From NCBI RefSeq assembly GCF_002858745.1, contig NZ_PJRO01000004.1, positions 1-64,000 on the forward strand: a stretch of DNA of 64,000 nt, given 5' to 3'. Position numbers and translations under genes: made by a program. The notes under the pieces are model-generated. The model saw only the letters and a program-made list of their open reading frames with translations. It made no database searches and was not told the origin of the DNA. Below are positions 3,528-23,835 of the stretch, piece after piece. This DNA is from Mesorhizobium loti (GTDB lineage: Bacteria; Pseudomonadota; Alphaproteobacteria; Rhizobiales; Rhizobiaceae). How positions within the stretch are numbered: the first letter of the stretch is position 1; each line of letters opens with the position of its first letter.

Positions 3528-3543
3528 TCGTTCTCCCCAGCCT

Positions 3544-7143: not shown

Positions 7144-8163
7144 TCAGCGCCAGCCGAGTGCCGGCGCGACATGTTTGACGATCGCCTCGATGACATGGGC
7201 GTTGTAGTCGACGCCAAGCTGATTGGGCACCGTCAACAGCAGCGTGTCGGCCTCAGTGATGGCGTCGTCCTGCTTCAACTGCTCGATGAGAACATCCGGC
7301 TCGGCGGCGTAGGTCCGACCGAAAACGGCACGCTTGTCCGCCTCGATATAGCCGAAATGGTCCTGGCTATCACTGCCGCCGAAATAGGCGCGGTCGCGAT
7401 CGTCGACCAGTGCGAAGATGCTGCGGCTGACCGAGACCCTCGGCTCACGCGTGTGGCCGGCCTCCTTCCAAGCGGCACGGTAGGCCCGGATCTGTTCCGC
7501 CTGCTGGACGTGCAGCGGTTTCCCGCTCTCGTCGAATTTCAGCGTCGAACTCTGCAGGTTCATGCCGAGCTTGGCCGCCCACTCGGCGGTGGCGTTGGTA
7601 GCTGCGCCCCACCAAATCCTGTCGCGGAGCCCTTCGGAGAACGGTTCCAGGCGCAACATGCCGGGTGGATTGGGGAACATCGGCCGCGGATTGGGCTGGG
7701 CGAAACCTTCGCCCTTGAGCACATCCAGGAAGACCTCCGCATGGCGCCTGGCCATGTCGGCGTCAGTTTGGCCTTCCGGCGGCACGTAGCCGAAATAGCG
7801 CCAGCCATCAATCACCTGCTCCGGCGACCCACGGCTGATGCCGAGCTGCAGGCGCCCGCCGGCGATCAGGTCGGCCGCACCGGCATCTTCCGCCATGTAA
7901 AGCGGGTTCTCGTAGCGCATGTCGATGACAGCGGTGCCGATTTCGATGCGGCTGGTCCTGGCGCCGACCGCAGCAAGCAGCGGAAACGGCGACCCCAGCT
8001 GGCGGGCAAAATGATGCACGCGGAAATAGGCGCCATCGGCGCCGAGTTCCTCGGCGGCGACGGCTAGGTCGATGGATTGCAAGAGCGCATCCGACGCCGA
8101 GCGTGTCTGCGATTGCGGCGAGGGCGACCAATGGCCGAAGGAGAGAAAGCCGATGTTTTTCAT
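7144..8163 (-). CDS. LLM-class flavin-dependent oxidoreductase (luciferase-like)
   Basis: A 339-residue flavin-dependent monooxygenase-like TIM barrel. Characteristic stretches are IGFLSFGHWSP at the N-terminus, ELGADGAYFRVHHFARQLGSPFPLLAAVGART, IEIGTAVIDMRYENPLYMAEDAGAADL and GRLQLGISRGSPEQV, which resemble bacterial luciferase-family proteins that use FMN or F420. I prefer the ATG at 8163; the frame extends two codons to a TTG. It is divergent from the cupin gene at 8322, and the palindrome at 8244-8261 lies between them, so it may belong to the MocR regulon. The substrate cannot be told from sequence. Confidence 0.9.
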   Translation of the reverse strand: MKNIGFLSFGHWSPSPQSQTRSASDALLQSIDLAVAAEELGADGAYFRVHHFARQLGSPFPLLAAVGARTSRIEIGTAVIDMRYENPLYMAEDAGAADLIAGGRLQLGISRGSPEQVIDGWRYFGYVPPEGQTDADMARRHAEVFLDVLKGEGFAQPNPRPMFPNPPGMLRLEPFSEGLRDRIWWGAATNATAEWAAKLGMNLQSSTLKFDESGKPLHVQQAEQIRAYRAAWKEAGHTREPRVSVSRSIFALVDDRDRAYFGGSDSQDHFGYIEADKRAVFGRTYAAEPDVLIEQLKQDDAITEADTLLLTVPNQLGVDYNAHVIEAIVKHVAPALGWR

Positions 8164-8243
8164 GGTCAAGGATGTAGCACATCGAAGTCAGGCTTCAATG
8201 TAAGGCCACGCAACGCACTGTCGCTGCTGCGGCGACAATCGGA

Positions 8244-8261
8244 CCACTTCCCGCAAAGTGG
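8244..8261. promoter_or_regulatory. Putative MocR operator, copy 1
   Basis: CCACTT, 6 bases, AAGTGG: perfect 6-base arms between the divergent oxidoreductase (start 8163) and cupin (start 8322) genes. The same arms and spacing recur at 10130-10147 directly upstream of the MocR gene. It could control either or both flanking genes. Confidence 0.6.
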
Positions 8262-8321
8262 AACTTGCAGACAGCGAGGTCGATCGGTTCCTTCGCGCTG
8301 CCAACAAGCAGGAGGAAAACC

Positions 8322-8693
8322 TTGGCTGAAGATCACAAGATCGTTGTCGCCAACAACATGGGCGAGTTCTGGACCGACGAGCGCTGCTACATCACCGAAT
8401 TGCACAACACGGAAGCGTCTCCGGAAGCCTCGCTGGCCGTTGCGCGTGTCGAAGTTGGCGTGACCACGCAATTGCACAGCCTCACGGGCGTGATCGAGCG
8501 CTATATCGTTCGCCAGGGCGAGGGGATACTCGAAGTTAATGGCGTGAAGCGCAAGCTGATGGTTGGCGATCAGGCTGTCATCCCGGCGCGGGCACCGCAG
8601 CGCATTGAAAATACCGGTTCGGTCGACCTGGAATTCTACTGCCTGTGCACGCCGCGCTTCTTCCCTGAATCCTACGTCAACCTCGAACAGTAG
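8322..8693 (+). CDS. Cupin-domain protein
   Basis: A single-domain cupin of about 123 residues. The metal-site region is partly recognisable: LHSLTGVIERYIVRQGEGILEVNG (cupin motif 1) and GDQAVIPARAPQRIENTG (motif 2). I chose the TTG at 8322 because GGAGGA (8311-8316) stands just before it; the frame is open upstream to 8265, but that part runs towards the palindrome. Small cupins of this type serve as isomerases, dioxygenases or sugar-binding proteins, so no reaction can be assigned. Its stop is 19 bases from the convergent MocR gene's stop, and the upstream palindrome links it to that regulator. Confidence 0.85.
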   Translation: MAEDHKIVVANNMGEFWTDERCYITELHNTEASPEASLAVARVEVGVTTQLHSLTGVIERYIVRQGEGILEVNGVKRKLMVGDQAVIPARAPQRIENTGSVDLEFYCLCTPRFFPESYVNLEQ

Positions 8694-8712: not shown

Positions 8713-10122
8713 CTAGGCTGCTGTCCTTCGCTGCGCCAGGTCGGAAATCGTTTCGATCGCGAACTGCATCGTCTCGGCCGGGCGCACGAAGGGCAGTCGA
8801 ATGAAGTCTCCGAAGTTCTCCTGCGCCGAATAGCCTGGCCCGGCAGACAGCAGGAGCCGGTGTCGTTGTGCTTCCTGGCACAGCGACACCGTGTCGACGC
8901 CGGGCATGTGGATCCACATGGCGGTGCCGCCGGCCGGTTGCGACCAATGCCAGCGGCCTTGAGCCCGTTCGGAAATCAGGTCTTCGGCGACCTTGAGATG
9001 GCTGCTGATTTCCTTGTGCCGATACGTCCGCGCCTCCTGGATGTTTTCGAGCAGGCCGACGGCAAGGTGCTGGTCGAACATCGAGCAACCGAGGTCGTTG
9101 ACCGCCTTGAAGCTGGCCAGCCGCTTTATCATCGGTGGGCTCGCGCGAATCCAGCCGATCCGGATGCCACCCCAGAACAGTTTGGAGAGCGTGCCGATGG
9201 TGGCGATATGGTCGGACTTTGTCTGGCCGGCAATCGGGCGGGGTGTTGCCCCGGCGATGGTGGAGAGTTCGTTCTGGGCGCCATCCTCGACGAGGAACGT
9301 CGGATAGCGGTCGAGCAGGCCGACCAGATCTCGACGGCTAACATCATCCAGCGATCGCCCGGTCGGATTGTGCACCTCCGGGAAAAGGTAGAGCAGTTTC
9401 GGCCGGTTCCTGAGGGCCTTTTCAAGCTGGTCCATGTCCAGGCCGCGAGCACTGATGCCGACCGGAACGATCCTGGCGTTGCGCCGGCGAAACACCTCCA
9501 GCGAGCCGCGATAGGCAGGATCTTCCACCACCACCGCATCTGAAGCGTCGAGCAAGGCATTCGCCAGCAGCCACACCGCCTGCTGCGCGCCGCTGGTGAT
9601 GAGGATGTTGTCGGAATGCGTGGGCAAGCCGAGGTCTGTATAATAGCGGGCGACAGCCCAGCGCAGGGCCGGCAGGCCGGATGCATCATAACCGAGCCCG
9701 GAGGCGACACTGGCCAGATCGGCGCCACGCAAGGCCGCCAGTGCATCGGTCAGGATGGGCGACGGCGGCAGGGCACCGCTGGTCATGTCGATGTCTTCCG
9801 GCAGCGCCTGCATCTCGCCGGCAAGACGTGTGTGGGCTACCCCCGGGGCATTCGCCGAGGCGATGATGCGGTGACCGCTGCCGTGACGGCTGTCGAGCAC
9901 GCCGGCTTCGCGCAGCGACGCATAGGCTGCAACCACGGACCCGCGACTGACCGCCAGGGCGGTTGCAAGCGTCCGCTCCGACGGCATCAAGGCGCCTGCC
10001 GGCAACTCCCTTGCCGTGATCAATCGGCCGATCGCCAGGCTGAGCTGCTGGGGAACCTTGCCTTCGGTCGTTTGCCAGCCACCGATGAGCCGGCTGATCC
10101 GCGCGGGTGAAATCCTGTTCAT
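8713..10122 (-). CDS. MocR-type regulator (GntR helix-turn-helix fused to aminotransferase fold)
   Basis: A 469-residue MocR-family protein. Residues 1-75 are a GntR-type winged helix (LSLAIGRLITARELPAGALMPSERTLATALAVSRGSVVAAY); the rest is an aspartate-aminotransferase-like fold that binds PLP. The likely Schiff-base Lys is in TIGTLSKLFWGGIRIGW, and VHNPTGRSLD and VEDPAYRGSLEVF are typical of fold type I. I use the ATG at 10122; a longer frame to 10314 would run through the palindrome at 10128-10149 and its promoter. It is divergent from the SDR/BMP-transporter operon, and matching palindromes stand before that operon and before the cupin gene. MocR proteins sense PLP-reactive amines or amino acids, which hints at the pathway's substrate class. 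Confidence 0.92.
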   Translation of the reverse strand: MNRISPARISRLIGGWQTTEGKVPQQLSLAIGRLITARELPAGALMPSERTLATALAVSRGSVVAAYASLREAGVLDSRHGSGHRIIASANAPGVAHTRLAGEMQALPEDIDMTSGALPPSPILTDALAALRGADLASVASGLGYDASGLPALRWAVARYYTDLGLPTHSDNILITSGAQQAVWLLANALLDASDAVVVEDPAYRGSLEVFRRRNARIVPVGISARGLDMDQLEKALRNRPKLLYLFPEVHNPTGRSLDDVSRRDLVGLLDRYPTFLVEDGAQNELSTIAGATPRPIAGQTKSDHIATIGTLSKLFWGGIRIGWIRASPPMIKRLASFKAVNDLGCSMFDQHLAVGLLENIQEARTYRHKEISSHLKVAEDLISERAQGRWHWSQPAGGTAMWIHMPGVDTVSLCQEAQRHRLLLSAGPGYSAQENFGDFIRLPFVRPAETMQFAIETISDLAQRRTAA

Positions 10123-10127: not shown

Positions 10128-10149
10128 GTCCACTTCTCGACAAGTGGAC
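10128..10149. promoter_or_regulatory. Putative MocR operator, copy 2
   Basis: GTCCACTT (10128-10135), 6 bases, AAGTGGAC (10142-10149): perfect 8-base arms in the gap between mocR (start 10122, minus) and the SDR gene (start 10235, plus). It shares CCACTT-N6-AAGTGG with 8244-8261. The site abuts the mocR start codon, which suits autorepression. Confidence 0.65.
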
Positions 10150-10234: not shown

Positions 10235-11074
10235 ATGGGCTCTTTTGCTACCAGGGGCGAACATCGCCCGCTGGCCGTGCGCCAGGTTGCGCCGACACGA
10301 TCGCATGCAAACAAACGCTATCTGGTTCTCGGCGGTGCAGGTGGTGCCGGCAAGGCCGCTGCTGCATTGCTGGCGGCGGAAGGCGCTTCGGTTGTCATCG
10401 GCGACGTGCGCGAACAGGCGCTGAACGAAGCGATTGCTGATCTCAACAAGGACGGTGGCAAGACAAGTACCGTCGTGGTCGATCTCGGCAATGCCGGCTC
10501 GATCGCGGCAGCCGTCGAACAGGCCGAGCAGCGCCTTGGCGGCATCGATGGTCTGGTCAACTGCGCAGCCATTGTCCGCCACGTTGATCCGCTTGAAACG
10601 CCCTGGACCGACTGGGAACGTGTCTTTGCGATCAACGTCTTCGGTGCGTTCGAGGCGTCGCGCCTCGTGGCCAAGGAGATGATCGCCAAAGGCATCAAGG
10701 GCGCGATCGTCAATGTCGCGTCGGAAGCCGGCAAGAAGGGCCATACCCAGTCGCTCGCCTATAGCGCGAGCAAGGCGGCGATGATCAATTTCACGAGGGT
10801 GCTTTCGGAAGTGCTGGCACCCAACGATATCAACGTGAACTGTGTCTGCCCCGGCGGCATGGCGACCGACATGCTGCGGGAGGTTGCCGTCGCTTATGGC
10901 GATCTGGTCAAGCAGGCCCCGGACGACGTGTTCGAACAACTCGTCAGCTCGCAACTGCGCCGGCATATCGATCCGATCGAGGTGGCCAGGACGATTTCGT
11001 TCCTGCTGAGCGACGATGCCATGATCATCCGTGGCCAGTCCATCAACACCGATGGTGGCGACACGCCGTATTGA
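10235..11074 (+). CDS. SDR-family oxidoreductase
   Basis: A 279-residue classical short-chain dehydrogenase/reductase. After a 27-residue extension the Rossmann fold begins YLVLGGAGGAGKAAA (glycine-rich cofactor site, with Gly in place of the usual first Thr). NCAAIV corresponds to the NAG motif, the catalytic Ser is in NVASEAGKKG and the Tyr-Lys pair is in YSASK. The C-terminus CVCPGGMATDM and FLLSDDAMIIRGQSINTDGG are standard. The ATG at 10235 follows GGGGAGG (10224-10230). It is the first gene of the MocR-divergent operon and should oxidise or reduce an intermediate of the imported compound; Asp in IGDVRE suggests NAD preference. Confidence 0.93.
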   Translation: MGSFATRGEHRPLAVRQVAPTRSHANKRYLVLGGAGGAGKAAAALLAAEGASVVIGDVREQALNEAIADLNKDGGKTSTVVVDLGNAGSIAAAVEQAEQRLGGIDGLVNCAAIVRHVDPLETPWTDWERVFAINVFGAFEASRLVAKEMIAKGIKGAIVNVASEAGKKGHTQSLAYSASKAAMINFTRVLSEVLAPNDINVNCVCPGGMATDMLREVAVAYGDLVKQAPDDVFEQLVSSQLRRHIDPIEVARTISFLLSDDAMIIRGQSINTDGGDTPY

Positions 11075-11153
11075 GGCTTTCTCCCTGGCGGACTACGCGG
11101 CCCGTCCGTGCATTCCGTTGCAACAGTTCATGCTTGCCTGTGGGGTTCAAAAA

Positions 11154-12173
11154 ATGACGACTGCCAGCAAATTCCTGCATATCTGCCTGGGTTCCGTGCT
11201 TGCCCTTTCTGCGGCTTCGGTTCCGGTCCGTGCCGAAGAAAACACGTTCGTTCTGGTCACGCCAAGCCGCATCGGCGTGAACAAGTTCCTCGGTCTCGGC
11301 AAGACCGGCATCGAAAAGGCTGCCACCGATCAGGGGGCAAAGGCCAAGGTATTCGAAGGCACCGATCCGTCGACGCGCCGGCAGCATGTGCAGGCGGCGA
11401 TCGACATGAAGGCTTCGATCGTCGCGGTCATGGGCTTCGAGTTCGGCGATATCATCGCCGATCTGGCGCCCGAAAACCCGGATACGAACTTCGTCATCGT
11501 CGACACCTGCATCCCTGACGCGCCGAAGAATGTCTATTGCGCTGTCTTCCGCGAACAGGAGGCCGCCTATCTGGCTGGAGCCGAAGCTGCGCTGACCTCG
11601 ACCAGCAAGACAGTCGGAGTGATCGGCGCGCTCGATATTCCGTTCCTGCACCGCTACACGGATTCCTTCGCGCTCGGTGCCAAGACGACCCGACCGGATA
11701 TCAATGTGCTGCCCACCTCGTGGATCGGCGGCGACAATCCGTTCCAGGACCCGGTGCGGGCGCAGACTCAGGCAACCCTGCAGCTGTCGAACGGCGCGGA
11801 CCGCATCTACGCGGTTGCTGCCGGCAGCAACGGTGGCGTCTTCAAGGCCGTCGCCGACAAATCAGGCGCGATGGCGATCGGACTGGATGTCAACCAATGC
11901 GGCGATGCGCCGGGAGCCATCCTCGACAGCACGTTGAAGAAGGTGGACGTCATTCTGCCGGCCACCATCGATGGCATCCTGAAGGGTTCGGCCAAGCCCG
12001 TGGTCAGCTTCGGTCTCGCCGAAGGCGGTCTCGAACTGGTCGCCACCACGGAAGCCGTCGCATCGTCGGGATGCAAGATCGCGGATAAGCCGGAAGTCAT
12101 CGGCCAGCTCAAGGACATCCAGGCGAAGATCGTTTCGGGCGCAATCACCGTGCCTGATCCGATGGCGCAATAA
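11154..12173 (+). CDS. BMP-family ABC transporter substrate-binding protein
   Basis: A 339-residue periplasmic binding protein of the BMP/PnrA/Med family. The first 28 residues are a Sec signal peptide (cleavage near VRAEE). Family segments include MGFEFGDIIADLAPENPDTNFVIVD, VFREQEAAYLAGAEAAL, VGVIGALDIPFLHRYTDSF and YAVAAGSNGGVFKAVADKS. Characterised BMP proteins bind purine nucleosides, and some homologues bind other small ligands, so nucleoside-like uptake is possible rather than certain. I use the ATG at 11154, which starts the signal peptide; the open frame begins at 11031, overlapping the SDR gene. It lies 79 bases after the SDR stop. Confidence 0.91.
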   Translation: MTTASKFLHICLGSVLALSAASVPVRAEENTFVLVTPSRIGVNKFLGLGKTGIEKAATDQGAKAKVFEGTDPSTRRQHVQAAIDMKASIVAVMGFEFGDIIADLAPENPDTNFVIVDTCIPDAPKNVYCAVFREQEAAYLAGAEAALTSTSKTVGVIGALDIPFLHRYTDSFALGAKTTRPDINVLPTSWIGGDNPFQDPVRAQTQATLQLSNGADRIYAVAAGSNGGVFKAVADKSGAMAIGLDVNQCGDAPGAILDSTLKKVDVILPATIDGILKGSAKPVVSFGLAEGGLELVATTEAVASSGCKIADKPEVIGQLKDIQAKIVSGAITVPDPMAQ

Positions 12174-12190
12174 CACGACCCCGGAGCGCG

Positions 12191-13699
12191 ATGATGACCT
12201 TGCTTGAGATGAAGGGCATCACCAAGCGATTTGACGGCGTCATTGCCAATGACGGGATCAGCCTTTCAGTCAACCGCGGCGAAATCCATGCGCTGATGGG
12301 GGAGAATGGGGCGGGTAAATCCACCCTGATGAACATCCTCTACGGGCTGCTGAAACCCGATGCCGGCGAAATCCTGGTTGACGGCAAGGCGATGGATTTC
12401 ACCAGTCCGCTGGGGGCGATTGCCGCCGGCATCGGCATGGTCCACCAGACCTTCAGGCAATTTCCCAACCTGACGGTCTGGGAAAACCTGGTGTTCCAGA
12501 ACGAGCCCAGGCAGGGGCCGTTTGTCTCCGCCGATGCCGCGCGCGATTTCGTTCGGCGGCTTGGCTCAAGGCACGGTCTGGAGATTGACCCCGACAGCCT
12601 GGTTCGCGACCTGGCGGTGGGTATACGTCAGCGCCTGGAAATCTTGAAGGCGCTGTCGCGCGAGGCCCGGATCCTGATCCTCGATGAGCCGACGGCCGTC
12701 CTCACGCCGCAGGAACGGGACGGCCTGTTTTCCGCCATGCGTGAGCTGGCCGGCAAGGGCATGGCCCTCATCCTTGTCACCCACAAGATCCCTGAGGTGA
12801 TTGCCATCACCGACAAGATTACCGTCATGCGTGACGGCCGAGTCTCCGGCACCCTGGTGACGAGGGGAACCAATGAGGCCGAGATCATCCGGGCAATGGT
12901 TGGCCGCAACGTGCCGCCGACGGTCGCGTCGAGGGTGACATCCGACGCCAGGCCGATGCTTTCGGTCAAGGACCTCTCGGTTCGCAAGGGGGCTGTCACG
13001 GTCGTGGACGACGTCTCCTTCGATGTCCGCCCGGGTGAGATCGTCGGCATTGCCGGCGTCTCGGGCAATGGACAGCCGCAGCTGATCTCGGCGGTCATGG
13101 GCCTCGAACCGGCGACAGGTGTCGTGAGCATCGACGGGCAGGACATTTCCAGGCTTCCGATCGCGCGCCGGCGTTCTGCCGGCATTTCCTATGTGCCGGA
13201 AGATCGCCATCTGACGGGTACGGCTCCGGCAGCCTCGATCGCCGAAAACATCGTCTTCGGAACGCATCGCAATGCTGCGGCCTCCAGCAAAGGGTTCCTG
13301 CGCAAGGATGCCATTCGCGCCCAGGCGCGCAAGCTGATCGAACGCTTTCGGGTCAAGGCCGCATCCGAGCAATTGCCGATCGGATCGCTGTCGGGCGGCA
13401 ACATGCAGAAAGTCGTCATCGCCCGCGAAGTCGAACACGGCTCGCCGCTGATCATCGTCGAAGAGCCAACCCGCGGCGTCGATGTCGGTGCCATAGAATT
13501 CATCCATCAGACCTTGATTGCCGAGCGCGACAAGGGGCGTGCGATCCTTGTGGTGTCGTCCGATCTGACCGAGTTGCTCGCCCTCTCGGACCGGATCCTC
13601 GTGATGTTCGAGGGGCGCATCAACGCCAGCCTCACCGGCAGCGACATGAATGAGGACACCGTCGGCCGCTGGATGATGGGGGGGGCGGAAAACAGATGA
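12191..13699 (+). CDS. ABC transporter ATPase with two nucleotide-binding domains (BMP-transporter type)
   Basis: A 502-residue double ABC ATPase. Walker A GENGAGKST is at residues 37-45 and Walker B is LILDEPTAVLTP; the stretch MVHQTFRQFPNLTVWENL is typical of nucleoside-type (YufO/NupO-like) ATPases. The second half has the degenerate site VSGNGQPQLI in place of Walker A and the signature LSGGNMQKVVIAREVE. Two ATGs are in tandem at 12191 and 12194 after a GGAGCG. It overlaps the following permease by 4 bases (ATGA). Two-domain ATPases of this kind partner a pair of permeases, as here. Confidence 0.93.
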   Translation: MMTLLEMKGITKRFDGVIANDGISLSVNRGEIHALMGENGAGKSTLMNILYGLLKPDAGEILVDGKAMDFTSPLGAIAAGIGMVHQTFRQFPNLTVWENLVFQNEPRQGPFVSADAARDFVRRLGSRHGLEIDPDSLVRDLAVGIRQRLEILKALSREARILILDEPTAVLTPQERDGLFSAMRELAGKGMALILVTHKIPEVIAITDKITVMRDGRVSGTLVTRGTNEAEIIRAMVGRNVPPTVASRVTSDARPMLSVKDLSVRKGAVTVVDDVSFDVRPGEIVGIAGVSGNGQPQLISAVMGLEPATGVVSIDGQDISRLPIARRRSAGISYVPEDRHLTGTAPAASIAENIVFGTHRNAAASSKGFLRKDAIRAQARKLIERFRVKAASEQLPIGSLSGGNMQKVVIAREVEHGSPLIIVEEPTRGVDVGAIEFIHQTLIAERDKGRAILVVSSDLTELLALSDRILVMFEGRINASLTGSDMNEDTVGRWMMGGAENR

Positions 13700-14721
13700 T
13701 CGCAGGGGCTCTCGACACGAAATCTCGCCTGGCGGCAATCCTGTTTTCCATCGCGGCTGCAGTCGTGCTGGGGGGACTTGTCGTCGGCCTGACTGGCGCC
13801 AACCCCGTTTCGGTCTATCTGGAGATCGCCAAGGGCGCGGTGCTGGGGCGGGGGCTGGATGAGACGCTGGCCCGCTCCGTGCCTCTGGTCGGCATGGCGC
13901 TGGCGGCGGCTATCGCGCTGCGGGCAGGGCTCGTCAATCTGGGTGGCGACGGGCAAATGCTGATCGGCGGGCTCGCTGCGGCACTCGTCGCGCTCTATCT
14001 ACCTGTTCCGGGTGCTGCCAGGGCGGTTCTTGCACTGGCTGCCGCCATCTGCGCCGGTGGGCTCTACGCCTGGCTCGCCGCGATCCTGCAGCTCAACCTC
14101 GGCATCCCGTTCCTGATCGCAAGCCTGCTGTTCAGCTACATCGCACGCGGCCTGACGTCTTATCTCGTGCGCTATCCGCTGCGCGATCCGGCCACGGGTA
14201 TGCCGGAGACCTATCGTGTCGCGTCGGGAGCGCGTCTTCCCGCTCACATATTCGATCTGCCGGTCAGCATGGCCATGGTCATCATGGTTGTCGTCGCGGT
14301 CGTGGTCGTGGTCAACGACAGGAGCGGCGTCAACGGTTTCGAATGGCGCATGACCGGCCTCAATGCGCGCTTCGCGCAGTATTCGGGCGTGGACCTGTCG
14401 CGGCAGACGCAACGGGTGGCATTCCTCAGCGGCGCGATGGCAGGTCTGGTCGGCGCCCTGCTGATCCTGGGCCAGCAATACCGTTTCACCGACGGTGCCT
14501 TGCTTGCCCCCGGCTACACATGGTCCGGGTTGATGGCGGCCGTCCTTGCCATGGCCAGCCCGATCGCGACGATCGTCACTTCGGTGTTCTTTGCCGCGCT
14601 CCAGGTTGGCGGCTTTTCCATGGAGCGAGCGCTCGGCCTGCCGGCCGTCCTGACATGGGTGCTGCAGGCGCTGATCATCCTGTGCCTCGCCGCGCGGCCG
14701 ATCTTGTTCAGGAAGCGATAA
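13696..14721 (+). CDS. BMP-type ABC transporter permease 1
   Basis: A 341-residue inner-membrane permease of the BPD_transp_2 family. The hydrophobic pattern fits about eight to ten helices, and ALRAGLVNLGGDGQMLIGGLAAAL carries the family's Gly-rich motif. The second half shows a cytoplasmic loop (GLNARFAQYSGVDLSRQTQRVAFLSGAMAGLVGALLI). It is YufP/NupP-like by gene order. The start overlaps the ATPase stop and only 3 bases separate it from the second permease. Confidence 0.92.
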   Translation: MIAGALDTKSRLAAILFSIAAAVVLGGLVVGLTGANPVSVYLEIAKGAVLGRGLDETLARSVPLVGMALAAAIALRAGLVNLGGDGQMLIGGLAAALVALYLPVPGAARAVLALAAAICAGGLYAWLAAILQLNLGIPFLIASLLFSYIARGLTSYLVRYPLRDPATGMPETYRVASGARLPAHIFDLPVSMAMVIMVVVAVVVVVNDRSGVNGFEWRMTGLNARFAQYSGVDLSRQTQRVAFLSGAMAGLVGALLILGQQYRFTDGALLAPGYTWSGLMAAVLAMASPIATIVTSVFFAALQVGGFSMERALGLPAVLTWVLQALIILCLAARPILFRKR

Positions 14722-14724
14722 GCC

Positions 14725-15618
14725 ATGCTCAACATGCTGCTTTCGCAAGTGCTTGATCTGATGACGCCAGTGCTGCTGGCCGCCATGGCTGGCGCATTGT
14801 GCGAGCGTGCCGGCGTGTTCAATATCGCGCTGGAAGGCAAGATGCTGGTCGGCGCCTTCGTGGCCGTCGCAACCAGCGTCGCGTTCGGGTCTCCAGTCCT
14901 GGCAGTTCTCTCGGCCGTCCTTTGCACGGCGATCTTTGCTTCGCCGCTGGCGCTTGGCGGCGCGCGTCTCGGCGGCGATCCGATCGTGATCGGCATCGGA
15001 TTGAACCTGCTTGCTTCCGGCCTGACGACCTATTTGCTGGGGGCGATTTTCGGTGTAACCGGTACCCTGGTCGACCCGTCGGTCACTGCGCTGCCCAGGT
15101 TCGGATTTGCTGCGCTGGCAGACGTGCCGGTGCTCGGCGCGATCCTTGGGCACAACGCGCTCGTCTATCTGTCCTGGCTGCTGGTGCTCGTCTTCAACAT
15201 TTACCTGTTCCGGACGCCGTGGGGGCTGCGCCTGCGCGGCATCGGCGAAGTGCCGTCAGCCGCTGCGGCGATGGGAGCGAATGTCAGCCGCTACCAGACG
15301 GCGATCGTGATCCTGGCCGGCGGCCTCTGTGGTCTCGCCGGAGCGCAACTGGCGCTGGGCTCGGTCGCGCTCTTCGCGGAAAACATGACGGCAGGGCGCG
15401 GCTGGATCGCCGTGGTCGCGGTGATGCTGGGGCGTGCCCATCCGTTGGGCATTGCCCTGGCCTGTCTCGGTTTCGGGCTCGCCGACGCTGTCGGGTTGCG
15501 GCTGCAGGGGCAGGGGCTGCCCAATCAGATCACCGACATCGCGCCTTACGCCATCACGCTGCTCGCGATGATCGGCCTTGGCCTGCGCGTCATGAAGAAA
15601 AAGACGAAAAGCGTTTGA
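14725..15618 (+). CDS. BMP-type ABC transporter permease 2
   Basis: A 297-residue partner permease, YufQ/NupQ-like. The motif [19 protein letters not shown] corresponds to the NxxxEG signature, and the transmembrane pattern continues to RVMKKKTKS. With the preceding gene it should form the channel for the BMP-type importer. An overlapping frame in the same stretch is shadow only. The Tm-1-like gene starts 10 bases later after GAGGAGGAAGAG, so one mRNA for transporter and enzymes is likely. Confidence 0.92.
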
Positions 15619-15628
15619 GGAGGAAGAG

Positions 15629-16837
15629 ATGAGCGTTCCAAAGACTGTCTATGTGGCTGGATCCTGCGACACCAAGGGCGATGAACTCCATTATGTGACC
15701 GGGATCATCCGGGCACAGGGCGTCGCGGCGGTGCTGGTCGATCTCTCCACCGACAAGCCGTCGGCCAGTGCCGATTTCGATGCCCGGACAGTCGCGGGTT
15801 TCCATCCCGGCGGTGTCGCCGCGGTCTTCACGGGAGATCGCGGCTCTGCGGTTTCGGCCATGGGGCTTGCCTTCGAGCGGTTCATCCTGTCGCGGGACGA
15901 TGTCGGTGGCGTCATCGGCCTTGGCGGTTCAGGCGGGACGGCGATGGTCACGCAGGCCATGCGCGTTCTGCCTGTCGGCACGCCCAGGGTGATGGTGTCC
16001 ACTGTCGCCGCCGGCAATGTGAGCGCCTATGTTGGTCCCAATGACATCGCCATGGTCAACTCGATCACCGACATTGCCGGCCTAAACCGCATATCGCGAA
16101 CCGTCCTGTCCAATGCCGCCAATTCGATCGCCGGCATGGTTCGCAACCGCCAGGAACTGGAGCAGGAAGACAAGCCGGCGCTCGGCCTGACCATGTTCGG
16201 CGTCACCACACCCTGTGTCACCCAGGTTGTCGAGCAACTGGGCGACGGCTTCGAATGCCTGGTCTTCCACGCCACCGGCATCGGTGGTCAGTCGATGGAA
16301 AAGCTGGCGTCTTCCGGCTTCCTCGCGGGCGTGCTCGACATCACCACCACGGAAGTCTGCGACCTGCTTTTCGGCGGCATCCTGCCGGCGACCGAAGACA
16401 GGTTCTCTTTCCTGGCGCAGTCGCCCCTGCCTTATGTCGGCTCGTGCGGTGCGCTCGACATGGTCAATTTCGCCGGCATCGACACGGTCCCGGAGAAGTA
16501 TCGCAATCGTAACCTCTACATCCACAATCCCCAGATCACGCTGATGCGTACGACGCTGGAGGAAAACGTGGCGATGGGCAAATGGATCGGCGAGCGCCTG
16601 AACCGCAGCATCGGCCCGGTGCGTTTCCTGCTGCCGCTCGGCGGCGTGTCGCTCCTCGATGCTCCCGGCCAGCCATTCCACGATCCGGCAGCCGATGAGG
16701 CGCTGTTCACCGCCATCGAGAGCACAGTCCAACAGACCGCCGAGCGCCAGGTCATCAGGGTGCCGTATGCGATCAACGCACCGGAATTCAGTTCCGAAGT
16801 CGTTCGCCACTTCAATGAAATCAGCAAAGGTCGGTAG
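15629..16837 (+). CDS. Tm-1-like ATP-binding-domain protein (UPF0261)
   Basis: A 402-residue protein of the UPF0261/Tm-1-like family. Recognisable segments are [17 protein letters not shown] at the N-terminus, [18 protein letters not shown] (a glycine-rich loop in the ATP-binding region), [49 protein letters not shown] and [15 protein letters not shown]. In tomato the virus-resistance protein Tm-1 has this domain as its N-terminal half and a TIM barrel as its C-terminal half; here the two halves are adjacent genes. The bacterial reaction is not established to my knowledge. The operon context suggests a catabolic enzyme acting on a BMP-transporter ligand. Confidence 0.93.
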
Positions 16838-16838
16838 T

Positions 16839-17672
16839 ATGAGATTTGAACGAAGCCAGTTGCTGGACAAGTTTCGCGCACAGATCAAGGCGAAGGTCCC
16901 CATCATCGGCGGTGGCGCCGGCACCGGCCTCTCAGCCAAATGCGAGGAAACCGGCGGCATCGACCTGATCGTCATCTACAATTCCGGCCGCTACCGCATG
17001 GCCGGCCGCGGTTCGCTGGCAGGGCTGCTCGCCTATGGCAATGCCAATGAGATCGTCGTCGATATGGCACGTGAAGTGCTGCCGGTGGTCAAGCACACGC
17101 CCGTGCTTGCCGGCGTCAACGGAACCGACCCGTTCTGCCAGTTCGATCCTTTCCTGGATCAACTCAAGGAGATCGGTTTTGCCGGCATCCAGAACTTCCC
17201 GACGGTCGGCCTGATCGACGGCAAGTTCAGGGCGAACCTGGAAGAGACCGGCATGGGTTATGCGATGGAGGTCGACCTTGTTCGCCTGGCGCGCAGCAAG
17301 GACATGCTGACCACTCCCTATGTCTTTTCGGTGGACGATGCCCGGGCGATGACGGAAGCCGGCGCCGACATCATCGTGGCGCATATGGGCCTGACCACCG
17401 GCGGCACGATCGGCGCCGACACGGCGCTGACGCTGCAGGATTGCGTCGGCGAGATCAACGCCATCTCAGCGGCCGCCCGCGCGATCAATCCCGACATCAT
17501 CATCCTTTGCCACGGCGGTCCGATCGCCGAGCCTGAGGATGCCCGCTACATCCTGCAGCAATGCCCCGGCTGTCATGGCTTCTATGGCGCATCGAGCATG
17601 GAGCGCCTGCCGGTGGAAAAGGCCCTCGTCGCACAGACGCAGGCCTTCAAGAACCTAGTCGTCCAACAATAG
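16839..17672 (+). CDS. PEP-hydrolase-like TIM-barrel protein (Tm-1 C-terminal-half homologue)
   Basis: A 277-residue TIM-barrel protein of the phosphoenolpyruvate hydrolase-like family. Segments supporting this are [93 protein letters not shown] and [17 protein letters not shown]. The ATG at 16839 comes one base after the Tm-1-like stop; the open frame extends upstream inside that gene, but the conserved start is here. Close coupling to UPF0261 matches the fused plant protein, implying that the two products act as a complex or on consecutive steps. The substrate is unknown. Confidence 0.92.
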
Positions 17673-17681
17673 GAGAGGAAT

Positions 17682-18119
17682 TTGGCCAAGGCTTATGCAA
17701 GCGCGGTGATCGACGCGCCGATCGAAACCGTGTGGAAGACCGTGCGTGACTTCAACGGGCTGCCGACCTGGCATCCCGCGATCGCCAAAAGCGAGATCGA
17801 GGGTGGGGCGAGCAGCGATTCCGTCGGTTCGATCCGTTCCTTCTATCTCCAGGACGGCGCTCATGTGCGCGAGCAGCTGCTTGCCCTCAGCGACAGCGAG
17901 CACTCGCTGTCTTACAGCTTCGTGAAGCCGGCATTCCCGGTGAAGAACTATGTCGCCTCCATCCGGTTGCTGCCGATCACGGACGGCAACCGCACCTTCG
18001 CCGAATGGATCGCCAATTTCGACGAGGAGCCGGAAGACGCCGGAAAATACGTGGAGATCGTTTCCGACCACGTGTTTGCGGCTGGCTGGAAAGCGCTGCA
18101 GGCACATCTGGCCAAATAG
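17682..18119 (+). CDS. SRPBCC-family protein (START-like lipid/small-molecule-binding fold)
   Basis: A 145-residue helix-grip protein of the SRPBCC superfamily, starting YASAVIDAPIETVWKTVRDFNGLPTWHP and ending DHVFAAGWKALQAHL. Proteins of this fold bind hydrophobic ligands or catalyse cyclase-like and dehydration reactions. The start is TTG at 17682 behind AGGAGAGGA, nine bases after the TIM-barrel stop. It is the last gene of the MocR-divergent operon, followed by a hairpin. A role as an accessory enzyme or intermediate carrier for the pathway is inference. Confidence 0.88.
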   Translation: MAKAYASAVIDAPIETVWKTVRDFNGLPTWHPAIAKSEIEGGASSDSVGSIRSFYLQDGAHVREQLLALSDSEHSLSYSFVKPAFPVKNYVASIRLLPITDGNRTFAEWIANFDEEPEDAGKYVEIVSDHVFAAGWKALQAHLAK

Positions 18120-18182: not shown

Positions 18183-19781
18183 TCAAGATTGCAGGATCAT
18201 GTCCGCCGCGCGCTGGCCGATCATCATGCTCGGCGCGTTGGTGTTGCCGGCAATCAGCTTCGGCATGATGGAAGCATCAGCGACGCGCAGCCCTTCCAGA
18301 CCACGCACCTTCAGGCTTCCCGGATCGACGACGGCCATGGCGTCGTCGCCCATCTTGCAGGTGCCGACCGGGTGATAGACGGTCAACGCCTCGGCGCGCA
18401 GATAGGCAAGGATCTCGTCGTCCGAACGAACGTCCTTTCCAGGCAACATCTCGACCCCACGCACAGGATCGAACACGGGTGATGCGAAGATCGCACGCGC
18501 GACCTTGATGCCTTCGACGAGAACCCGTGCGTCCCGTTCATCCGAGAAGAAGCGATGATCGATCCGGCCGGTTGTCGATGAGCCGTCGCGTGCAAGTGTG
18601 ATCTCGCCGACACTCTTCGGTCGCAGCACGCAGGTGTGGATGGCATAGCCGTGGCCGTATTCGACCAGCCTGCCACGATGGCTGCGATAGCCCGGCACGA
18701 AGTGGAACTGGATGTCGGGTTCTGCGCCCGCGTAACGGGTTCGCGCGAAGCCGCCCGCCTCGACATAGTTGGTGGTCAGCATGCCTTTGCGGTGCGCGAA
18801 GTAGCTGTAGGGTGCGGCGAGGATCCGAGGCAGGTTGGCGACGGAAAGCCCAAGCGTGCGCGGGCTCGACGAGCGCACAGTGATCATGCCGTCGACATGG
18901 TCCTGCAGGTTCTTGCCGACGCCCGGCAGCTCATGGACCGGCGTGACGCCGCCGCGCCGGAGTTCTTCTGTCGGGCCGATCCCGGATTCCAGCAGGATCT
19001 GCGGTGAGTTGATGGCGCCGGCCGAAAGCACCACTTCGCGAACGGCCGTCAGAAGTGTGTCGATACCTTTGTGGCGGATGCTCACGCCCGTCGCGCGCTT
19101 GTCCGAGACGACGACGTTCTTGACCGTGCATTCGCTCAATACGGTCAGGTTCGGACGGTCGAGAACCGGACGTACGAAAGCGGTGAAGGCGCTGAAGCGT
19201 TGCCCCCGGTCCTGTGTCACGTTGTAGATGCCGACGCCGAACTGCGATGCGGCATTGAAATCGCTGTTCTCCGGCAAGCCGACATCCTTGCCCGCCGCCA
19301 CGAACATGCGCGAAAGCTCGTTGGGATCGCGCGGGTTGTCGACCAGAAGGTCGCCGTCCGTGCCATGATACCGCCTGTCCTGACCGAGCAGGTTGCGCTC
19401 AAGCCTCTTGAAGACGGGCAGTACGTCGTCATAGGACCAGCCGGCACAGCCGAGGCCTGCCCACTCGTCGTAGTCGGCAGCAGCGCCGCGTATGTAGACC
19501 ATCGAATTGATCGAGGTCGATCCACCCAGCGCCTTGCCGCGATTGACCGGAATGCGGCGGCCATTCAGTTCGGGCTGCGGTACGCCGAAATAGCAATAGT
19601 CGTAGCTGGGGTTGCCGTAGAGCGAGAGGATTCCGGCCGGAACCTTCACCCGCAGGCTTTGATCGCTGCCGCCGGCTTCGATCAGGCAGACCTTTGTTGC
19701 CGGGTTGGCGCTGAGACGGTTCGCCAGCACGCAACCGGCTGAGCCGGAGCCGACGACGATGTAGTCGTATGTGTCATTCAT
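18183..19781 (-). CDS. GMC-family FAD oxidoreductase (choline/alcohol dehydrogenase-like)
   Basis: A 532-residue GMC oxidoreductase. FAD-binding GSGSAG is at residues 11-16, followed by LIEAGG; KALGGSTSINSMVYIRG is the GMC signature 1, and SAGAINSPQILLESGIG is signature 2. Near the C-terminus, the catalytic His is in YHPVGTCKMG and the second polar residue (Asn) in GNTNAPSMMIGQRAADMI. Such enzymes oxidise alcohols to aldehydes or ketones with FAD. It follows the polyamine-type binding-protein gene on the same strand, 67 bases away, so it probably oxidises a hydroxylated amine or similar compound brought in by that importer. The start ATG has no strong ribosome-binding site. Confidence 0.93.
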   Translation of the reverse strand: MNDTYDYIVVGSGSAGCVLANRLSANPATKVCLIEAGGSDQSLRVKVPAGILSLYGNPSYDYCYFGVPQPELNGRRIPVNRGKALGGSTSINSMVYIRGAAADYDEWAGLGCAGWSYDDVLPVFKRLERNLLGQDRRYHGTDGDLLVDNPRDPNELSRMFVAAGKDVGLPENSDFNAASQFGVGIYNVTQDRGQRFSAFTAFVRPVLDRPNLTVLSECTVKNVVVSDKRATGVSIRHKGIDTLLTAVREVVLSAGAINSPQILLESGIGPTEELRRGGVTPVHELPGVGKNLQDHVDGMITVRSSSPRTLGLSVANLPRILAAPYSYFAHRKGMLTTNYVEAGGFARTRYAGAEPDIQFHFVPGYRSHRGRLVEYGHGYAIHTCVLRPKSVGEITLARDGSSTTGRIDHRFFSDERDARVLVEGIKVARAIFASPVFDPVRGVEMLPGKDVRSDDEILAYLRAEALTVYHPVGTCKMGDDAMAVVDPGSLKVRGLEGLRVADASIMPKLIAGNTNAPSMMIGQRAADMILQS

Positions 19782-19807
19782 GATTTATGCCGCGATAGCA
19801 GGAGAGC

Positions 19808-19831
19808 CTCCCGCCCACGAATGGGCGGGAG
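19808..19831 (-). other. Intercistronic hairpin between binding-protein and GMC genes
   Basis: CTCCCGCCCA and TGGGCGGGAG are perfect 10-base arms around a CGAA tetraloop, 18 bases after the binding-protein stop on the minus strand. There is no T tract. It could stabilise the upstream mRNA or reduce read-through into the GMC gene. Confidence 0.6.
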
Positions 19832-19848
19832 TGATGTGGTCTGCGCTG

Positions 19849-20886
19849 CTATTGGAGAAGCTGCGTCCAAACCTTGGTGACCAGCTCCTGCGCGGCTGGC
19901 GAGCAGGCCTGGCCCATCTTGACCGGGGCGGTCGGGAAAAGCTCCGGCGCGTTTTCCTTGTTGTAGAGCGCCTTGCTCGCATCCACCTTCACCGGCGAGG
20001 AATGGCCGTAATAATTGTATTCGATGGTGGCGTTTTCTTCCTTGGCCATGAAGTCGATGAACTTCTTGGCGTTGTCGATATTGGTCGCGCCCTTGGGTAC
20101 GACATAGGAATCCAGCCAGCCGACCAGGCCTTCCTTGGGCATGGCGTATTCGACATTGGCCTTGTCGTTGCGGCGTACCCGCATGGTGTTGCCATCCCAC
20201 CAGAAGTGCATGGCGACTTCGCCGCCGCCGATGCGGTTTTCGATGTTGTCGCTCGAATAGGCGGCGACGAACGGCTTCTGCGCCTGCAGCAAGTCGAGCA
20301 CGCGCTTCATCTCCTTCGGATCCTCGCTGCAATAGGGGATGCCGAGATAGTTCTGCGCGGCAGGGATGACTTCGTCGGGCTGAGCCAGGCTGGCGATCTT
20401 GCCCTTCAACTCCTCGGACGGTTCGAAATAGACCTTCCAGCTGTCGACCGGTCCCTTGTAGAGGTTGCGGTTGACGGTGAAGCCGGCATTGCCATAGGCG
20501 AGGGGCACCGAATAATTGCCGGTCGGATCCCACCATTGCTTCTGCCATTCAGGCAGGATCTGCTGGAATGCCGGCATAGAGCTCGCGCCGATGTCCTCGA
20601 GCAGGCCGCTGTCGATCATGATCTTCACGAAGTGCTGCGAGGGCGTGACGATATCGTAGCCTGACGAGCCGGCCTGCAGTTTGGTCAGCAGGTCTTCATT
20701 CGAGGAAAAGGCGTCGACGGTGACCTTGATACCGGTCTCCTTCTCGAATTTCGCCACGGCGTCGGGGGCGATCGAGTCCGCCCATGCGTAGATGGAAAGC
20801 GAACCTTCCGCCCATGCCGATGCGCTGGCAACGAGGCTGAATGCGCTGGCTGCGGCCAGCATGGAAAGACGGGTTTTTACGGACAT
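19849..20886 (-). CDS. Spermidine/putrescine-type ABC transporter substrate-binding protein
   Basis: A 345-residue PotD-family periplasmic binding protein. A Sec signal peptide occupies residues 1-26 (cleavage near AWAEG). The mature part begins LSIYAWADSIAPDAVAKFEKETGIKVTVD and includes GYDIVTPSQHFVKIMIDSGLLEDI, VPLAYGNAGFTVNRNLY and MHFWWDGNTMRVRRND. Homologues bind polyamines or related amines. In transcription order the cluster is ATPase, permease, permease, binding protein, GMC oxidoreductase. The start ATG is preceded by AGGGGAGC; a 7-base inverted repeat lies just upstream. Confidence 0.92.
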   Translation of the reverse strand: MSVKTRLSMLAAASAFSLVASASAWAEGSLSIYAWADSIAPDAVAKFEKETGIKVTVDAFSSNEDLLTKLQAGSSGYDIVTPSQHFVKIMIDSGLLEDIGASSMPAFQQILPEWQKQWWDPTGNYSVPLAYGNAGFTVNRNLYKGPVDSWKVYFEPSEELKGKIASLAQPDEVIPAAQNYLGIPYCSEDPKEMKRVLDLLQAQKPFVAAYSSDNIENRIGGGEVAMHFWWDGNTMRVRRNDKANVEYAMPKEGLVGWLDSYVVPKGATNIDNAKKFIDFMAKEENATIEYNYYGHSSPVKVDASKALYNKENAPELFPTAPVKMGQACSPAAQELVTKVWTQLLQ

Positions 20887-20896
20887 GGAGCTCCCC

Positions 20897-20923
20897 TTAT
20901 CGTTGTGTTTCGGGGGACGATAA
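20897..20923. promoter_or_regulatory. Inverted repeat upstream of the binding-protein gene
   Basis: TTATCGT and ACGATAA are perfect 7-base arms 13 bases apart, immediately upstream of the ribosome-binding site in the 100-base gap between the second permease gene and the binding-protein gene. It could be an internal regulatory site or a 5' hairpin. Confidence 0.3.
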
Positions 20924-20986
20924 CAAACGGGCTCCGGCGATAAATTTCATTTGCCCGACGTGCTGCTTAGGAAAAAACTCGCTCTG

Positions 20987-21769
20987 TTACTGCCGGCGCT
21001 GCAGCAGGAAGGCGATTGTGGCGAGCACGACAGAAACGATCATGATCAAGGTCGAGATCGCGTTGAGCTGTGGCGACACGCCCTGCTTGATCAGCGAAAA
21101 GATGTAGACCGGCAAGGTCGTGGCGCCGCCCGAGTTCAGCAGGTTGCTGGTGATGAAGTCGTCCATGGAAATGACGAACGCAAGCATCGCGCCGGCGAAC
21201 ACACCCGGCAGGATCAGCGGCAGTGTCACGCGCCGGAAGGCGACCCAGGCGGAAGCGTAGAGGTCGCGCGCGGCTTCCTCCAGGTCGGCGTCCATGCCTT
21301 GCAGCCTCGCCCGTATCGGCAGGAAGGCGAAGGGGATGCAGAACGTCGTGTGTGCAATGGTCAGCTTGAGCAGGCCGTTGGTCAGGCCCACTTCGGAAAA
21401 CAGGATGAGAACCGCCACCGCGACGACGATCTCGGGCAGCAGCAGCGGCAGGTTGACCACTGTCTCGGAGACGCGCCGGAAGCGCACGTTCCTGCCGCGC
21501 ACCAGGACAAGCGCTGCCATCAGCGCGACGACGGTGGAAAGCACGGTGGCGATGGTGGCGACGAACAGCGACGTCTTCACCGCGCCGACGAGCGCGGCAT
21601 TCGACAGGGCCGTCGTATACCAGTGCAGCGAGAACCCGCCCCAGTTGGAGACGATGCGGTTGGCGTTGAAGGAATAGAAAACCACAACGGCAATCGGCAG
21701 ATAGAGGTAGACGAAGAAGATCAGGTTGAACAGGCCGAACCCCGGGTAGCGCCGCACATTGCTGGTCAT
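20987..21769 (-). CDS. Polyamine-type ABC transporter permease (PotC-like)
   Basis: A 260-residue inner-membrane permease. It has a first helix FGLFNLIFFVYLYLPIAVVVFYSF, a periplasmic segment NWGGFSLHWYTTAL typical of PotC/YdcV proteins, and the permease EAA loop near DLEEAARDLYASAWVAFRRVTLPLILPG. I chose the ATG at 21769, overlapping the upstream permease stop by 4 bases (ATGA); the open frame extends upstream to 21841 but only in the neighbour's coding sequence. Confidence 0.92.
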   Translation of the reverse strand: MTSNVRRYPGFGLFNLIFFVYLYLPIAVVVFYSFNANRIVSNWGGFSLHWYTTALSNAALVGAVKTSLFVATIATVLSTVVALMAALVLVRGRNVRFRRVSETVVNLPLLLPEIVVAVAVLILFSEVGLTNGLLKLTIAHTTFCIPFAFLPIRARLQGMDADLEEAARDLYASAWVAFRRVTLPLILPGVFAGAMLAFVISMDDFITSNLLNSGGATTLPVYIFSLIKQGVSPQLNAISTLIMIVSVVLATIAFLLQRRQ

Positions 21770-22665
21770 GCGCCTTCCTCCCGTCCTTCCTTTCGCATCG
21801 CCTGGATGCCGCGCCAGAGCAGGAAGATCATCACCGCGCACATCAGCACGATGGAAATGGCGGCACCCAGCGGCCAGTTGCGGGCGGCGCCGAACTGCAG
21901 CTGGATCAGGTTGCCCATCATCATCGTCTTGCCGCCACCGAGCAGGACGGGTTCCAGCACCGCACCGAGACAGGGAACGAAAACCAGGATGGCGCCCGCC
22001 GCCATGCCCGGACGACAGAGCGGCAGGATCACGCGGCGAAGCGTCGTCAGGCGACTGCCGTAGAGATCGTGTGAAGCCTCGACGAGAGCTGGATCGAGCT
22101 TCTCGATCGAGGCGAAGACCGGCAGGATCATCAGCGGGATGTAGCTGTAGACGAGGCCGATCAGCATCGCGGTGTCGGTGAAGAGCAGGCTGCCCATGTT
22201 TTCGCCGAGCCCGAGCGCCCGCAGCGTCTTGGCGATGACCCCGTCATTGCCGAGGATGATGATCCACGAATAGACGCGCACGATCATCGAGACCCAGAAG
22301 GGCAGCGTCACCAGATAGATCAGCAGCATTTTCGCCGACGTCTTCTGCAGCGAGATGAAATACGCGACCGGAAAACTCAGGGCGAGGCAGATGATCGTGG
22401 TGGCCAGCGACAGTATGACGGTTCTGGCAACGACGATCAGATATTGCGGATTGAATTCGAGTTCCCCGCTCCACCCTTCGTTGAACAGGATCTGCTTGTA
22501 AGGGGCGGTGGTGAATACATAGTCGAAGCCGCCATACGGGCCTCTGGTCGAGAACGAAACCAGGATGATGATCCCGACCGGAATGATCAACGTCAGCAGC
22601 ATGATCAGCTGCGCCGGGAGCAGCCCCAGCACATTCCAACTCGGGATTTTCGGGCGCTGGCTCAT
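21766..22665 (-). CDS. Polyamine-type ABC transporter permease (PotB-like)
   Basis: A 299-residue inner-membrane permease with about six hydrophobic helices ([73 protein letters not shown]). The EAA loop is [27 protein letters not shown]. PotB-type proteins pair with PotC-type proteins in the channel, and both are present here. Its ATG overlaps the ATPase stop by 4 bases. Confidence 0.92.
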
Positions 22666-23753: not shown

Positions 23754-23801
23754 ATGGACGATCTCGACAGGAGGGGCGTGGCTTGTCGCGACGCGATCGG
23801 T

Positions 23802-23835
23802 GGCCGGCATTGCGCGGGATGCTGCAATGCCGGCC
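23802..23835 (-). other. Strong hairpin after the Liv-type binding-protein gene
   Basis: GGCCGGCATTGC (23802-23813) and GCAATGCCGGCC (23824-23835) are perfect 12-base arms around a 10-base loop, 6 bases beyond the binding-protein stop. No T tract follows on the minus strand. A partial terminator or 3' stabiliser would let the binding protein be made in excess over the downstream genes. Confidence 0.65.

Follow-up and report, generated by a model that had tools for sequence, protein, structure and literature searches.

What does a bacterial operon do when it places a relative of the tomato protein Tm-1 directly before a TIM barrel of the PEP-hydrolase family? This question is raised by positions 10235 to 18119 of the window, by which we mean the whole stretch of 64,000 nucleotides analysed here (Mesorhizobium loti, contig NZ_PJRO01000004.1, from a host genome of 6.4 Mb in 35 contigs). 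A reading of the sequence only had described a tightly spaced set of genes and had proposed a catabolic operon with its own importer and regulator around the UPF0261 (Tm-1-like)/TIM-barrel pair. Our analysis supports this proposal: the locus is probably a catabolic operon built on a conserved pair of a kinase and a TIM barrel, the kinase half of which has a precedent. We consider it fairly likely that the products of the operon take up a small organic compound and break it down by an ATP-spending route, with the barrel acting on the product of the kinase.

A conserved operon around the Tm-1-like/barrel pair

The genes of the operon are:

10235-11074, + strand: short-chain dehydrogenase/reductase (SDR; Pfam adh_short, 176.3 bits)
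11154-12173, + strand: BMP/PnrA-type periplasmic binding protein (Pfam Bmp, PF02608, 123.8 bits, cut-off 24.1)
12191-13699, + strand: ATPase of an ATP-binding cassette (ABC) importer, with two ABC domains (Pfam ABC_tran, two stretches)
13696-14721, + strand: ABC importer permease 1 (Pfam BPD_transp_2)
14725-15618, + strand: ABC importer permease 2 (Pfam BPD_transp_2)
15629-16837, + strand: UPF0261/Tm-1-like protein, predicted ATP-dependent small-molecule kinase (Pfam UPF0261 and UPF0261_C)
16839-17672, + strand: PEP-hydrolase-like TIM barrel, predicted to use the kinase product (Pfam PEP_hydrolase, 445.9 bits)
17682-18119, + strand: SRPBCC (polyketide cyclase-like) protein (Pfam Polyketide_cyc2, 84.4 bits)

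The SDR gene is separated from the BMP gene by 79 bases and the later gaps are 17, -4 (an overlap), 3, 10, 1 and 9 bases, with a regulator gene divergent at 8713-10119 (- strand). In a profile scan every product exceeds the cut-off of its own Pfam family. The eight-gene operon is thus confirmed by gene calls, Pfam and conserved synteny; its proposed limits hold for these genes, but the unit reaches further and takes in two operator-like sites and a cupin gene (8322-8693).

With the cupin and the MocR-type regulator added, a set of ten genes is found, in unchanged order, in four other genomes, so that the grouping is not due to chance. Two of these genomes are congeneric, with protein identities, gene by gene, of 94-98% (L097) and 93-97% (L098), and two are from Ensifer: Ensifer sp. 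PDNC004 (L004, 80-90% across the ten genes) and E. adhaerens ST2 (L015, 79-90%). Moreover, in Acidovorax (L019) a MocR gene (59% identity) lies directly against UPF0261 (74%) and barrel (84%) genes, with no SDR, importer or SRPBCC match within the 20.8 kb examined; the regulator therefore goes with the pair and not with the importer.

The Tm-1-like protein as a predicted kinase

The UPF0261 protein matches both of its Pfam families over its full length (PF06792, 195.8 bits; PF23189, 289.1 bits; cut-off 27). Its predicted structure, with a mean predicted local distance difference test score (pLDDT) of 93.4, resembles tomato Tm-1 (Z 48.5, root-mean-square deviation (rmsd) 1.8 over 384) and entry 9mpy (Z 35.2, rmsd 7.0 over 387 residues, 29% identity). 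According to its title, the latter entry is Saro_1862, a UPF0261 domain protein of Novosphingobium aromaticivorans with bound acetovanillone. The window protein and Saro_1862 are 30.8% identical over 390 columns, and across 105 UPF0261 rows 37 positions show at least 95% conservation. In a 2026 paper, the single-component kinase MarK is described as opening acetovanillone catabolism in this same species; from the common organism, ligand and role, we infer that MarK is Saro_1862.

The genes that accompany relatives of Saro_1862 point the same way. In Sphingobium yanoikuyae, Sphingomonas bisphenolicum and Pseudomonas putida, genes for proteins 54-67% identical to Saro_1862 are each followed, by annotation, by three genes for biotin carboxylase/carrier components and one HAD hydrolase-like gene. 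The same carboxylase/HAD make-up is described for the Hpe/Acv pathway, a route opened by a two-component kinase of another family (PMC9618137 and PMC12167813, in the parts consulted). These clusters appear to give independent support to the kinase reading, and by analogy with these relatives the window protein is best read as a small-molecule kinase. It had been held that neither the Tm-1-like protein nor the barrel has an established bacterial substrate: with Saro_1862 and acetovanillone, UPF0261 now has a precedent, while the statement stands for the barrel and for the function of the pair.

The likeness to the acetovanillone/MarK and Hpe/Acv routes thus lies in a UPF0261 protein with bound acetovanillone from the MarK organism, in relatives that sit by biotin carboxylase and HAD genes, and in a pathway opened by ATP-dependent phosphorylation. 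In contrast, the window operon has no carboxylase, phosphatase or coenzyme A ligase by Pfam, and a TIM barrel follows the kinase instead. Plant Tm-1 and Tm-1L have the same two domains, fused in one protein where the window has two operon genes (PMC5028733, as far as consulted). From the same part of that source, Tm-1-like proteins are reported in nearly all sequenced land plants, and tomato Tm-1 binds a viral replication protein, its other function being unknown.

The host genome holds two more UPF0261 copies (L095, G000:C7; L096, G000:C31), 29-31% identical to the window protein and with no barrel in the stretches examined. Amino-acid permease and class III aminotransferase genes are their neighbours, one of the two also having HAD and HpaB-type hydroxylase genes, and the copies seem to form a second UPF0261 subfamily. 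Elsewhere, a dikinase-like protein with PPDK_N and PEP-utilizers domains (L140:5029-6381) is encoded directly before a UPF0261 gene that has no barrel.

The PEP-hydrolase-like barrel

The Pfam PEP_hydrolase profile (PF09370, cut-off 33.8) covers positions 2-267 of the 267 residues of the barrel. The model has a mean pLDDT of 83.5, with segments 53-56, 123-125 and 253-255 under 50, and matches 2p10 best (Z 33.4, rmsd 2.2, 66% identity over 243 aligned residues). This entry is Mll9387, a Mesorhizobium structural-genomics protein of the same barrel family that is titled only putative phosphonopyruvate hydrolase. The next fold matches, at Z 18-19, are the TrpC, TrpA, TIM and PdxS barrels, enzymes that act on phosphorylated substrates. 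Two conserved stretches, HGGP past strand 7 and GASSMER past strand 8, would fit a phosphate site. Two others, HMGLTTGG and NGTDPF, prompted an early idea of a PanB-like enzyme, after the PanB motif, which was not used.

The barrel domain also forms the N-terminal part of a sigma-54 activator in locus L066 (Pfam, 245.5 bits) and of 14 other long proteins. This is what would favour seeing the pair as a signalling or regulatory unit and not as two enzymes, in line with the old name 'TIM-barrel signal transduction protein'. A comparison of the 15 long proteins with 122 standalone barrels makes such a role very unlikely. Residues R51, R53, N70, E79, N119, D127, R131, E144, D177, G226, G227, P228, S252 and R256 are kept in at least 80% of the long proteins, which change K34 (mostly to Q, E or R), H182 (N in 10, D in 4), T186 (N in 15/15), H225 (E in 14/15) and E255 (D in 14/15). 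In contrast, His182, Thr186, His225 and Glu255 are kept in at least 97% of the standalone barrels. Because the regulator copies changed residues that standalone copies keep, the two types are under different constraint. Moreover, a UPF0261 relative binds a catabolic substrate, which also speaks against a purely regulatory pair.

The same comparison suggests that the sigma-54 copies kept the pocket for sensing and lost the catalytic set, the barrel having apparently been recruited as the sensor domain of these regulators. It also makes Lys34, His182, His225 and Glu255 candidate catalytic residues of the standalone barrel. Beside sigma-54/barrel regulators we also observed genes for short standalone part-barrels, such as L066:15281-15841, the L066 copy scoring 31.5 bits, just under the cut-off.

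The pair as a conserved unit

Among 299 sampled Pseudomonadota genomes, the barrel is found in 19, eight of them being the window's own genome and its genus, and UPF0261 in 28 (27 of them above the cut-off). UPF0261 accompanies the barrel in each of the 19 genomes, and the barrel is absent from 9 of the 28 UPF0261 genomes, one of these nine scoring below the family cut-off. Most of the loci that we examined were picked by the barrel, and some, including L120-L124, by UPF0261; adjacency, and not the presence of a partner, is therefore the test. The barrel gene directly adjoins a UPF0261 gene or fusion in 118 of 130 single-domain cases. Of the other 12, five lie no more than three genes from UPF0261, another five are shortened or regulator-type copies, and the remaining two (L027 and L087) have no UPF0261 within three genes.

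The pairwise distances of the two partners are correlated (r = 0.82 over 121 pairs), a value reached in none of 500 permutations, the largest of which gave 0.30; without the divergent pairs, the correlation is 0.69 over 116 pairs. Co-evolution of the partners had been reported earlier by Yang et al. 2016, where an interaction between them is proposed on this basis (PMC5028733, in the part consulted). In a tree of UPF0261 proteins, for which 143 rows were thinned at 80% identity to 105, both tomato Tm-1 and the window protein fall among barrel-paired proteins, Tm-1 being labelled as paired since the domains are fused in the plant. The paired label changes twice on this tree, against 16 changes expected from shuffles, and Saro_1862 lies with L120-L122 outside the barrel-paired part. 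The tree was built by a quick method, and several long branches, including that of tomato Tm-1, are flagged.

Judging from these gene orders and distances, the Tm-1-like/barrel pair is a conserved unit whose importer is exchangeable. Among the matches listed in our literature search, none assigned a function to the pair. The parts of the papers that we consulted mention homologues without a function, in brown-rot expression (PMC6867892), a Yersinia proteome (PMC8508112), a maize hydroxycinnamate genome-wide association study (PMC6882159) and a Brucella comparison (PMC2364660). As a separate observation, about 43 barrel residues (query 10-53) are matched at 73-74% identity in Klebsiella plasmid records (57 by organism), with no annotated gene under the match, among the matches listed; this partial barrel looks like a gene remnant.

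Exchangeable importers and the neighbours of the pair

The neighbour survey used 91 of 92 loci, L090 being left out for a missing motif. Near the barrel, UPF0261 is a single gene in 75/91 loci and part of an ABC-fusion cluster in 14/91; the pair has an SRPBCC gene in its neighbourhood in 45/91 and a TetR gene in 29/91. In Bosea, Qingshengfaniella and NGR234, the pair is accompanied by CUT1 sugar-type importers with Gfo/Idh/MocA, cupin and sigma-54 regulator genes, some with ThuA. In Variovorax, Pseudorhodoferax and others, it stands with LIV-type importers, amidohydrolases, an alpha/beta hydrolase and flotillin, together with an SRPBCC-zinc-dehydrogenase fusion and an ABC-ATPase-UPF0261 fusion. 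One locus (L108) has a molybdenum (Mo) hydroxylase with AAA and CoxE-like genes, Komagataeibacter a major facilitator superfamily (MFS) gene and an ABM monooxygenase, and Rubrobacter a sodium symporter, while in Vibrio and many enterobacteria the pair has a TetR gene and no importer. Other loci of the pair also carry FAA hydrolase and zinc- and iron-type alcohol dehydrogenase genes, and in Variovorax L012 ring-hydroxylating dioxygenase genes lie downstream. The catabolic genes around these other copies would favour a catabolic setting for the window operon.

Some of these contexts recall detoxification, in which the pair would remove a reactive metabolite or a xenobiotic and not serve growth. 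In enterobacteria and Achromobacter the pair often follows a divergent TetR gene and has no importer, and in Gluconobacter and Komagataeibacter the nearby genes encode an ABM-type monooxygenase and MFS proteins, Gluconobacter having a nitroreductase as well. The window type, however, includes an SDR as well as an ABC importer, and fuller catabolic sets occur in other types; for the operon described here, detoxification is unlikely.

Several gene structures were recorded in passing. In L091:7819-10008, a single chain of 730 residues combines an ABC ATPase with UPF0261 (Pfam) beside a barrel, and 18 such fusions adjoining a barrel were counted by domain position. In L091:13033-14490, a fusion joins an SRPBCC domain and a zinc-type alcohol dehydrogenase; it occurs in the clusters that carry the pair. 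In Labrys loci with close pairs, amino-acid permease, isochorismatase-like and glutamine-synthetase-like genes lie upstream; they were not used as context, since an opposite-strand gene lies in between.

The importer and the substrate

Because the same pair sits with CUT1, LIV, MFS or sodium-symporter genes, or with none, the importer is not the key to the chemistry of the operon, contrary to what had been assumed. The nearest solved chains of the binding protein are 7x0r (Lbp, 1e-25) and TmpC (2fqw, 8e-16), which are BMP/PnrA-type lipoproteins, and members of this family bind nucleosides. At 1e-25 or weaker such relatives do not fix the ligand, and the amine or nucleoside-like compound suggested in the sequence-only reading is not established. 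The relatives would fit the salvage of a common nucleoside by this importer, with the pair as an unrelated passenger. Among the operon products, however, Pfam identifies no nucleoside hydrolase, phosphorylase or deaminase; importer, pair and regulator are found together in five loci (four at 79-98% identity to the window), and no gap after the binding protein gene exceeds 17 bases. Nucleoside salvage is therefore distinctly improbable.

A second suggestion comes from the NCBIfam models. The best matches of all four importer parts are models of a putative B6 transporter, and all are below cut-off (62.7/400, 462.4/670, 150.2/400 and 129.2/465 bits). With a regulator of a pyridoxal phosphate (PLP)-binding family, an SDR that matches a pyridoxal 4-dehydrogenase model, one of many, and PdxS barrels among the fold matches, a pathway related to vitamin B6 could be imagined. 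We regard it as highly improbable: the importer scores far under these cut-offs, and the SDR reaches 140.4 of 325 bits for that model. Overall, the SDR is below cut-off for all of the best 25 of 226 matched NCBIfam models.

Because of the acetovanillone precedent and the dioxygenase neighbours in Variovorax, we favour, with low confidence, a hydroxylated aromatic or an enolisable ketone as the substrate class. Sugar-type importers in other clusters of the pair would argue for a wider range.

The regulator, its likely operator and the cupin gene

The features upstream of the operon are:

8242-8263: second operator-like site, the inverted repeat GACCACTT-N6-AAGTGGAA, ahead of the cupin gene, with 2 mismatches to the main site
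8322-8693, + strand: small cupin protein (Pfam Cupin_2, 35.1 bits), present in all five operons of the window type, with the operator-like site upstream
8713-10119, - strand: MocR-type regulator (Pfam GntR, 38.9 bits; class I/II aminotransferase, Aminotran_1_2, 80.8 bits)
10128-10149: likely MocR operator, the perfect inverted repeat GTCCACTT-N6-AAGTGGAC, between the mocR and SDR genes

The regulator had been described as PLP-sensing. It combines a GntR helix-turn-helix (cut-off 27) with a class I/II aminotransferase domain of the PLP-binding fold (cut-off 19.7), which makes it a regulator of the MocR type. Its best NCBIfam match is MocR_like_YczR, at 397.7 bits under a cut-off of 487.4. In known MocR-regulated catabolic operons, such as those of EhuR, GabR and the rhizopine MocR, the regulator gene is divergent from the operon. 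The window regulator shares this orientation and both domains; it differs in scoring below the cut-off of every MocR model among the best 25 of 61 NCBIfam matches.

At up to 3 mismatches, the operator pattern has two matches in the window, with 0.12 expected. In the whole genome, a slightly relaxed pattern finds only 10128-10149 and the cupin site at 0-1 mismatch, and five further places at 2 mismatches; 2.4 Mb of other loci gave one match at up to 3 mismatches and 34 at up to 4. Both sites are present in 5/5 operons of the window type. The cupin sites of Ensifer read GACCACTT...AAGTGGTC, with arms 8/8 paired in both copies, and the site of Acidovorax L019 reads GTCCAGTT...AACTGGAC, a compensated arm change; the arms of the operator therefore change together. 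A scan for promoters and terminators found nothing beyond chance level.

From this pattern, GTCCACTT-N6-AAGTGGAC is likely the MocR operator ahead of both operon and cupin, and the cupin a probable member of the same regulon. The alternative start of the cupin open reading frame, 8265, begins 2 bases past the operator-like site, and the start at 8322 is favoured for this reason.

Other genes flank the operon. A luciferase-like monooxygenase gene at 7144-8163 (- strand) is divergent from the cupin gene and may belong to the regulon, because the site at 8242-8263 lies between the two; its start is also beside the cupin in L097, and none was seen in L098 or Ensifer L004. Further upstream, 1113-7119 holds a LacI-like regulator (- strand, named from reading alone) as well as another ABC importer, of sugar type, with a binding protein, an ATPase and two permeases, called without a family scan. 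On the other side, at 18183-23810 (- strand), a GMC oxidoreductase gene is followed by ABC importer genes (binding protein, two permeases, ATPase). This block also adjoins the operon in L097 and L098 (92-98%), but not in Ensifer L004, and contains no operator-like site at up to 4 mismatches.

A proposed route and its weak points

Altogether, we can propose the following route. First, the BMP-type ABC importer would take up the compound, and the SDR would oxidise or reduce an alcohol or ketone on it. The UPF0261 kinase would then phosphorylate a hydroxyl, a phenolic one in the case of the studied relative's pathway. The barrel may cleave or rearrange the phosphorylated intermediate through the candidate residues Lys34, His182, His225 and Glu255, and the SRPBCC protein may help with this intermediate. 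Finally, MocR would sense the compound or an intermediate and switch the operon and the cupin gene through its likely operator. Of this, the sequence itself shows the gene content, the conserved gene order, the adjacency and joint distribution of the pair, and the repeats; kinase activity is deduced from relatives, and the binding of MocR to the repeats, the use of the kinase product by the barrel and the barrel's reaction are predictions.

Several points weigh against this route. The 37 conserved positions of UPF0261 are not universal, the window protein having R at 120 and Saro_1862 having F at 114 and D at 224, and we have read the identity of MarK with Saro_1862 in no text. With no more than 31% identity to Saro_1862 and a place outside the clade of that protein, the window protein probably has a different substrate. 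As no biotin carboxylase or HAD phosphatase is found among the operon products by Pfam, the downstream chemistry cannot be that of Hpe. In the barrel model the loop 253-255 is of low confidence. The TrpC, TrpA, TIM and PdxS folds are common, a Z of 18-19 is no proof of phosphate binding, and methylisocitrate lyases, on the side of the PEP/pyruvate (isocitrate lyase-like) superfamily, match the fold as well (Foldseek rank 26). The 15 sensors may share one origin, and their changed residues need not be catalytic. As to the operator, at 2 mismatches the reversed control is as frequent in the genome as the pattern (7+9 against 6+6).

Beyond this operon, we tentatively suggest, as an idea that could well go either way, that the pair forms a so far undescribed module of two enzymes. 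In this module, the kinase would pass on a phosphorylated product, which the TIM barrel would take as a lyase or hydrolase; the module would be common to bacteria, haloarchaea, fungi and, in fused form, land plants, would work with exchangeable importers, and would have had its barrel copied into the sigma-54 sensor of the pathway. In the literature that we found, the native function of Tm-1-like proteins is open. The kinase link, the candidate catalytic residues, the exchangeable importer and the likely operator make the role of the pair directly testable and, if the module is real, the native role of plant Tm-1 would be a metabolic step carried out by a kinase and a barrel.

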